Source of the DNA: Propionispora vibrioides
GTDB lineage: Bacteria > Bacillota > Negativicutes > Propionisporales > Propionisporaceae
DNA: 64,000 bases
Assembly: GCF_900110485.1 (NCBI RefSeq)
Contig: NZ_FODY01000003.1
Span: forward strand, 1 to 64,000
Direction of reading: 5' to 3'
Shown: piece after piece, positions 22,217 to 23,753 of the stretch
Numbering within the stretch: position 1 is the stretch's first letter
Layout of the letters: every line of letters begins with the position of its first letter
The notes under the pieces: model-generated
Told to the model about the DNA's origin: nothing
Database searches by the model: none
Seen by the model: only the letters and a program-made list of their open reading frames with translations
Translations under genes and position numbers: made by a program

Positions 22217-23059
<843 letters not shown>

Positions 23060-23088: not shown

Positions 23089-23117
23089 TTGAAATTCAAA
23101 ATACTTCCCGTTATAAT
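23089..23117 (+). promoter_or_regulatory. promoter of small-RNA-like module A
   Basis: TTGAAA, a 17-nt spacer and TATAAT on the plus strand, pointing away from anfH. The same arrangement with a different spacer occurs at 23340-23368, with the same distance to the conserved RNA-like block. Confidence 0.7.
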
Positions 23118-23123
23118 AGAAAC

Positions 23124-23205
23124 AGGCAAATTAAATAAACCTAGTGCCACTGGGTTTAACAACGGCTTTGCGGATATTCGTGGTATCCTCAAAGCTTTTG
23201 TTTTT
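23124..23205 (+). ncRNA. candidate small RNA A upstream of anfH
   Basis: The predicted transcript of about 82 nt starts 7 nt after the -10 box at GGCAAAT. The first 30 nt match module B in 27 positions (core TAGTGCCACTG). It ends in a hairpin at 23165-23195 with 12-bp arms (GCTTTG...CAAAGC, one mismatch) and the loop TTCGTGG, followed by TTTTGTTTTT, a normal intrinsic terminator. No open frame or ribosome binding site is present. It is antisense to the region ahead of anfH. I do not recognise an RNA family. Confidence 0.6.
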
Positions 23206-23339
23206 AAAGCATATATGGACGATATATCCTCAGCTCCTTCCGGTACAGTTATTTTTGCCTATTAACCAGCTCTAACAGTCTTCTTTTGATAACCACCCCC
23301 TTTCATTTCAATAAAGCTACCTTTTTCTCTAAGAACACC

Positions 23340-23368
23340 TTGAAACTCCCTGCCTGTTTTGCTATAAT
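23340..23368 (+). promoter_or_regulatory. promoter of small-RNA-like module B
   Basis: TTGAAA, a 17-nt spacer and TATAAT on the plus strand, placed 251 bp from the same boxes of module A. The spacer sequences differ while the boxes are identical, which argues that they are functional. Confidence 0.7.
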
Positions 23369-23374
23369 GCAAAA

Positions 23375-23465
23375 TGGGCAAATCAAATAAACTTAGTGCC
23401 ACTGAGAATAGGAGATTTACCTCTGCTTCATGGATATTCGTGGTATCCATGAAGCTTTTATTTTT
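23375..23465 (+). ncRNA. candidate small RNA B upstream of anfH
   Basis: The predicted transcript is about 91 nt. It opens with the conserved block at 23377-23406. It then has about 18 nt where module A has about 10, and ends in a perfect 12-bp hairpin at 23425-23455 (GCTTCATGGATA / TATCCATGAAGC) with loop TTCGTGG, followed by TTTTATTTTT. The outer arms differ from module A on both sides in a pairing-preserving way, so selection has acted on the structure. Confidence 0.62.
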
Positions 23466-23502
23466 AGCGTTAAATAGTTAGCCGCCAGGCAAGACTGCTT
23501 TC

Positions 23503-23535
23503 TTTACCCGCTATATTCGTGGTATCGCGAGTAAA
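23503..23535. repeat. third hairpin with the same loop (degenerate module C)
   Basis: TTTACCCGCTATA and TATCGCGAGTAAA flank the same TTCGTGG loop. Pairing is slightly better for a minus-strand RNA (a G-U pair replaces a C-A mismatch). No T run follows on either strand and no promoter or good copy of the 5' block precedes it, so it is either a decayed copy or a hairpin used in another context. Confidence 0.55.
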
Positions 23536-23547
23536 ACGGCCTGCTGT

Positions 23548-23592
23548 AAAAAAGGGGTATCAATGAACCGTTCCGGTTCATTGATACCCCTT
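23548..23592 (-). terminator. strong terminator downstream of the minus-strand promoter
   Basis: A perfect 16-bp stem (GGGGTATCAATGAACC with its complement) and a 5-nt loop are followed by TTTTTT on the minus strand. With the promoter at 23659-23687 it would yield a transcript of about 105 nt. It could be a further small RNA, or a regulated attenuator ahead of the anf operon. Confidence 0.8.
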
Positions 23593-23658
23593 CGTATCTG
23601 CCAGGCAAAGTACTGCCAAACACCCTGCTCCAGAGAATATTAAACTTGCTTTTGTCTT

Positions 23659-23687
23659 ATAATACTACACCAAATCCATAGAGTCAA
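23659..23687 (-). promoter_or_regulatory. minus-strand sigma-A promoter ahead of the anf cluster
   Basis: TTGACT, a 17-nt spacer and TATTAT on the minus strand. It is the only good promoter I find ahead of anfH in the right direction, but the terminator about 60 nt downstream of its start must be passed for it to serve anfH. Confidence 0.7.
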
Positions 23688-23753
23688 TATGTTTTAGTTA
23701 ATTTAATTTGTTTTTGTTGATTTAGTTTATCTAGTTAGTATCTGTGTATAAAT

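Follow-up and report, generated by a model that had tools for sequence, protein, structure and literature searches.

Among described regulators, cis-antisense RNAs of the plasmid CopA/CopT type engage their targets through kissing loops and feature YUNR U-turn loops. To our knowledge, the choice between molybdenum (Mo) and iron-only nitrogenase is poorly understood in anaerobes of the Gram-positive lineage. Small RNAs acting on nitrogenase mRNAs have been described in other organisms. In Pseudomonas stutzeri, the non-coding RNAs NfiS and NfiR are trans-encoded, have nifK/nifD mRNA as targets and raise expression (PMC6606865), NfiS being termed species-specific in its literature (PMC6606865). 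In the archaeon Methanosarcina mazei, the trans-acting sRNA154 stabilizes nifH mRNA (review PMC9170634), while a study of ANTAR antitermination predicts ANTAR sites at nitrogenase genes (PMC3369931).

The locus analyzed here belongs to a 64,000-nucleotide stretch of Propionispora vibrioides DNA (the window) and carries, upstream of the iron-only (anf) nitrogenase operon, two modules. Each is predicted to produce an RNA of ~80-95 nt whose structural parts are P1 (a 5'/3' helix), P2 (an internal hairpin) and P3 (a hairpin serving as terminator). Like CopA (see also PMC4485353), this predicted RNA is short, arises from the strand opposite an mRNA leader and has a loop complementary to its target loop. 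By inspection, most of its 7-nt loops contain YUNR on one strand (TTCGTGG, TTTGCGG, TTCGCAG and their reverses), but this motif is not universal, being absent from 6-nt loops such as TTGCCG. Unlike the CopA/CopT system, it is chromosomal and located at nitrogenase operons, putative promoterless docking copies are found upstream in the target leader, P1 and P2 are conserved and the loop polarity flips between genera. With NfiS and NfiR it shares an association with nitrogenase mRNAs, but these are trans-encoded, activating RNAs of Pseudomonas; similarly, sRNA154 affects nifH mRNA but is not antisense to the nifH leader. Finally, as at ANTAR-controlled leaders, ANTAR-like hairpins are found upstream in the nif/anf sense leaders; the antisense RNA itself, however, is no ANTAR substrate and lies downstream on the other strand. 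A function as ANTAR substrate or decoy was rejected on the absence of a hexaloop with A1/G4, the P2 loops being UGCCA-like and the P3 loops UUCGUGG-like.

Two Antisense Modules Upstream of anfH

The features of the locus are as follows.

22217..23044, minus strand: anfH, which opens the iron-only nitrogenase operon as its first gene (TIGR01287, 464 bits)
23089..23117, plus strand: promoter of antisense RNA copy 1 (anfH-proximal), TTGAAA-17-TATAAT, 11/12 to the sigma-70 consensus
23124..23206, plus strand: predicted transcript of antisense RNA copy 1; model matches with E 1.6e-11 and 1.9e-9; fold z -5.1
23137..23157, plus strand: P2 hairpin of copy 1 (AAACCUA..UGGGUUU), from the fold, with covariation and GU excess in relatives
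23165..23195, plus strand: copy 1 hairpin P3 (terminator), in which 23177-23183 form the UUCGUGG loop; a T run follows at 23196-23206; P3 covariation in 31 relatives
23293..23303, minus strand: Shine-Dalgarno (SD)-like AAAGGGGGTGG in the sense leader between copies 1 and 2, from the sequence
23340..23368, plus strand: promoter of antisense RNA copy 2, TTGAAA-17-TATAAT; TG precedes the -10 element
23376..23466, plus strand: predicted transcript of antisense RNA copy 2; model matches with E 6.6e-15 and 4.9e-14; fold z -4.3
23376..23422, plus strand: P1 helix of copy 2, GGGCAAAUC (23376-23384) with GAUUUACCU (23414-23422), from the P1/P2/P3 fold and the own-pairing score
23392-23406, plus strand: P2 of copy 2, enclosed by P1, from the P1/P2/P3 fold
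23425..23455, plus strand: copy 2 hairpin P3 (terminator), in which 23437-23443 form the UUCGUGG loop; a T run follows 23455; covariation in relatives
23503..23535, minus strand: third hairpin, candidate docking hairpin without promoter; minus-strand (anf sense) loop CCACGAA, complementary to the small RNA loop
23552..23598, minus strand: anf leader terminator with a stem of 19 bp (23552-23592), which overlaps with an ANTAR-like mini-hairpin; same arrangement in relatives
23583-23598, minus strand: ANTAR-like mini-hairpin GATAC[GAAGGG]GTATC; in the window, the first loop position is occupied by G rather than A
23659..23687, minus strand: predicted anf sense promoter TTGACT-17-TATTAT, consensus match only

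An earlier note on this DNA had reported an exact TTGAAA-17-TATAAT at 23089-23117 and 23340-23368, each followed by a repeated 5' block and by a hairpin with a T run and an invariant apex, and all these claims hold. The two promoter sequences are the only exact instances in the window, on either strand. The shared block is a direct repeat of 33 nt with 88% identity (23120-23152 and 23372-23404; 25 of 28 nt identical counting from 23126/23378), and the P3 apex, ATATTCGTGGTATC, is identical in copies 1 and 2. As the note had also stated, the P3 stems diverge between the copies with pairing kept, apart from one C-U mismatch in copy 1. It had overlooked a third copy of the apex at 23513-23526, located inside the hairpin 23503-23535, which has neither promoter, nor block, nor T run. 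Both modules lie between anfH and the predicted minus-strand promoter and terminator (23687-23552) and are thus antisense to the presumed anf leader. The existence of ~80-90-nt structured RNAs antisense to this leader, as the note had inferred, is supported by plus-strand folds better than those of shuffled sequences (0/200 shuffles as good for either copy) and by homologues which retain the structure.

An Undescribed RNA Family at Nitrogenase Operons

Both modules belong to a structured RNA family which is undescribed and has no match in Rfam. A search of Rfam with the module returned no family at gathering score and only sub-threshold matches, with E up to 10, and a literature search limited to open-licence papers retrieved no report of such an RNA, in agreement with the initial impression that no RNA of this form had been described. 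DNA searches of relatives located the 5' block ahead of anf operons in several families, mostly in tandem. A covariance model, proposed at the outset as a way to find structure-conserving homologues elsewhere, was built from 18 copies; applied to 380 genomes of Negativicutes, the class in question, it yielded 74 matches in 43 genomes, all beside nitrogenase genes. Set against the nifH matches of the genomes concerned, 73 of these 74 copies proved to be on the strand opposite nifH/anfH, 59-1533 bp upstream, the remaining one being antisense and upstream of anfD. Their host operons encode iron-only (anf) or Mo (nif) nitrogenase, and weaker family members occur at Mo-nifH operons, including that of the window genome itself (L100, G000:C19). 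The antisense module initially noticed at anf is real, but is not a trait of anf alone. On gene context alone, a connection with the supply of nitrogen or metals is plausible.

In a sample of 398 genomes from the whole phylum, matches were found in two genomes only, both Negativicutes. A scan of named genomes identified the module in Propionispora, Pelosinus, Sporomusa and Pectinatus. One further case was found at the anf operon of a clostridium, Ruminiclostridium hungatei, which suggests that the module moved together with its operon. There (L138 3590-3975), one antisense module is present, and the sense leader contributes three hairpins without promoter, of which one has a wobble-compatible loop change, CCGCGAA. 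Other genomic occurrences of ATTCGTGGTAT are apparently within the coding sequences of unrelated genes. A Pectinatus copy (L123; G039:C15:65972-66040, minus strand) has no adjoining nitrogenase gene and is possibly a trans-acting version.

Structure and Strand of the RNA

In relatives, nearly every proximal or single copy is preceded by TTGAAA-17-TATAAT and hence has its own promoter opposite the target strand. These copies start near GGGYA, followed by P1, a helix between the 5' end and a segment just before the terminator, by a P2 hairpin of the type CCYRG-UGCCA-CUGGG and by P3, which together with a T run (weak in some copies) provides a defined 3' end by intrinsic termination. RNAalifold on all diverse copies recovered P3 alone and neither P1 nor P2, both of which were tested separately because the alignment slips there. 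Across 31 diverse copies, P3 comprises 12 pairs, nine of them with pair-keeping changes on both sides, and its wobble positions amount to 12 G-U cells and zero A-C cells.

The strand was addressed by scoring G-U and A-C alike, a G-U pair on one strand being A-C on the other. On the antisense strand, P3 of proximal and single copies contains 20 G-U against 2 A-C wobbles, or 10 against 2 when only distinct events of proximal copies are counted, and P2 contains 86 against 33, a few automatic P2 picks being off register. For P1, the pairing of a module's own arms exceeded that of permuted partners in 72 modules with z 6.9 on the module strand and 4.3 on the other. From these wobble pairs and the P1 arm pairing, we conclude at the level of sequence that the structured RNA is on the strand antisense to nitrogenase. 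The pooled wobble counts are inflated by shared ancestry (phylogenetic non-independence), and part of the G-U asymmetry could be imitated by a C-to-T or A-to-G mutation bias linked to transcription. A pseudoknot between the P2 and P3 loops (GCCAC/GUGG) was rejected by inspection, as it fails with flipped P3 or changed P2 loops, e.g., in L016.

Tandem Loci and Their Distal Copies

Relatives have 17 tandem loci in which a promoter is missing from the distal copy (promoter scores 6-9/12, vs 11-12/12 for proximal copies), and usually P1 as well. Wobbles in distal P3 hairpins lean toward the sense strand, with 6 G-U for 15 A-C vs 20 for 2 in proximal copies (Fisher p 3e-5). The lean is weaker at one event per genus (12 A-C, 6 G-U), some stems being misregistered; stem energies agree with it (p 0.014). 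Despite stems only 40-90% identical, the distal loop, read on the module strand, equals the proximal one in 14 of the 15 tandem pairs scored, and the variants common to both copies of a locus include TTCGTGG, TTTGTGG, TTCGTAG, CTGCCA and the flipped CCACGAA. Complementarity between the loops of the proximal RNA and of the distal sense strand has thus been kept through change. A similar trend is observed in the 5' block, in which differences between proximal and distal copies preserve G-U pairing of the proximal RNA with the sense distal site in 64 cases vs 18 (pooled). For transitions, the count is 15 vs 5 distinct events (p 0.02) or 34 vs 8 per genus, with 8 genera for and 0 against. Some anf leaders have extra promoterless hairpins carrying the same loop. 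At most Mo-nif loci, no separate docking copy is found, so that pairing there would be only with the cis complement. Within one genome, the loops of nif and anf RNAs were different in all 15 genomes compared.

The window deviates from this tandem pattern: copies 1 and 2 each have a good promoter, and the promoterless part is played by the third hairpin. The idea of two paralogous small RNAs fits the window, where both promoters are kept, but not most relatives, in which the tandem partner is promoterless, usually lacks P1 and resembles a docking site. The alternative that the minus strand carries structured elements of the anf leader is also partly true, because the stem of the third hairpin has the lower folding energy on the sense strand (-11.1 kcal/mol, vs -7.2 on the antisense strand).

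Proposed Mechanism and Alternative Explanations

Collectively, the comparative data show the existence of the family, its strand, its structure, its genomic context and a docking signature. The function which we regard as probable is that of a cis-antisense small RNA which contacts the leader of nif/anf mRNA through its 5' block as well as through pairing between loops; expression, pairing in vivo and repression are all inferred. The RNA would be transcribed away from the gene, from a strong promoter located directly ahead of the ribosome-binding site of nitrogenase. Its P3 loop would touch the complementary hairpin loop of the sense leader, whether the latter is still being transcribed or already complete. 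Its single-stranded 5' block would then zip up with the complementary sequence, which may be that of the cis site or of the promoterless docking duplicates lying further upstream in this leader. The most likely effect would be repression, basal transcripts being either degraded upon duplex formation or blocked in their expression; it is inferred because it is the usual effect of such RNAs and has not been shown. Nitrogenase would thus be made only when transcription of the leader, itself under the control of an ANTAR-type terminator, exceeds production of the small RNA, and sense transcription over the small RNA promoter would silence the latter. The loop polarity may flip harmlessly because sense and antisense loops flip together; copies within a locus must then agree, which they do.

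Other explanations can be considered. The module might be a structured small RNA acting in trans or via a protein and merely located beside nitrogenase, its shared loops reflecting recent duplication or gene conversion. The conservation of P1, P2 and the AAUAAACC segment, which exceeds the need of a simple cis-antisense RNA, and the Pectinatus orphan without nitrogenase neighbor (G039:C15:65972) are in its favor, and we regard it as unlikely rather than excluded: synteny is strict across many families, tandem loops are identical despite diverged stems, nif and anf loops differ within one genome and the wobbles between proximal RNA and distal sense site are directional. Convergent promoters across a leader of a few hundred bases are also what would be expected if collision at the promoters, or their occlusion, were the main way in which antisense transcription works, with the RNA as an incidental product. 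Neither conserved P1/P2 nor shared loops would be required in that case, and we regard it as very unlikely.

Two further possibilities dispense with a functional antisense RNA. The active element could be in the sense leader alone, of the riboswitch or ANTAR type, with accidental plus-strand promoters, as might be suspected from the ANTAR-like hairpins, SD-like motifs and promoterless hairpins of this leader. Near-perfect promoters and T runs have, however, been retained on the antisense strand across families, and the wobbles of proximal P3 and P2 are G-U on that strand, rendering this possibility very unlikely. A double-stranded DNA operator, with the P3 apex as a protein-binding palindrome, would account for a loop found in either orientation on the module strand depending on the genus (TTCGTGG or CCACGAA) and for the resemblance of the apex to the AATATTGCGAATATT site ahead of nif sense promoters. 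It is nonetheless highly improbable, as apex variants do not track variants of the upstream AATATTGCGAATATT site, while T runs, promoters, P1/P2 covariation and G-U bias require an RNA.

Returning to the cis-antisense mechanism, the different loops of nif and anf RNAs within a genome would keep the two systems apart. A more general proposal, that RNA control of nitrogenase extends across the class, every Mo or iron-only nitrogenase operon having a private loop-coded antisense RNA, with evolved arrays of promoterless docking hairpins displaying the complementary loop at anf and orthogonal action of Mo and iron-only RNAs within one cell, is tentative and in our estimation falls slightly short of an even chance. 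If true, such private RNAs would constitute a direct, testable control point for a very costly enzyme, as well as natural loop-coded antisense pairs useful for the study or engineering of RNA control. The sequence data already predict base changes that should break, then restore, control.

Elements of the Sense Leader

Sense promoters and terminators are predicted upstream of the module (no transcript data). In the nif/anf sense leaders of relatives (L055-L066, L111, L113), ANTAR-like mini-hairpins overlap and exclude the terminators, with forms such as AAGC[AATGGA]GCTT at nif and GGTAC[AAAGGG]GTATC at anf. Two ANTAR response regulators of the window genome (G000:C6:125326 and G000:C12:30390; L026 and L027), each adjoining a histidine-kinase-like gene, are candidate antiterminators of the leader.

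In relatives, SD-like AAGGAGGTG motifs are located 37-68 nt, and mostly 42-60 nt, 5' of the P3 apex at the majority of proximal or single modules. The conserved SD-like AAGGAGGTGRTT in the sense leader at most proximal loci (e.g., L056, L061), mostly at this distance of 42-60 nt upstream of the apex, is reminiscent of STAB-SD mRNA stabilizers. Translation of a leader peptide from the SD-like motif was rejected by inspection, start codon and frame being inconsistent.

Further upstream, A-rich direct repeats of the AACTAAAAC type precede the predicted anf sense promoter in several genomes, at ~23700-23745 in the window and in L045, L046 and L054. A conserved palindromic TTTAATATTGCGAATATTT directly upstream of the TATTGC-17-TATACT promoters of Mo-nif operons (L055-L091) is likely an activator site. 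In the window genome, a small gene resembling molbindin (mop), as judged from its translation only, is located directly upstream of the Mo-nifH leader (G000:C19:1400-2600).
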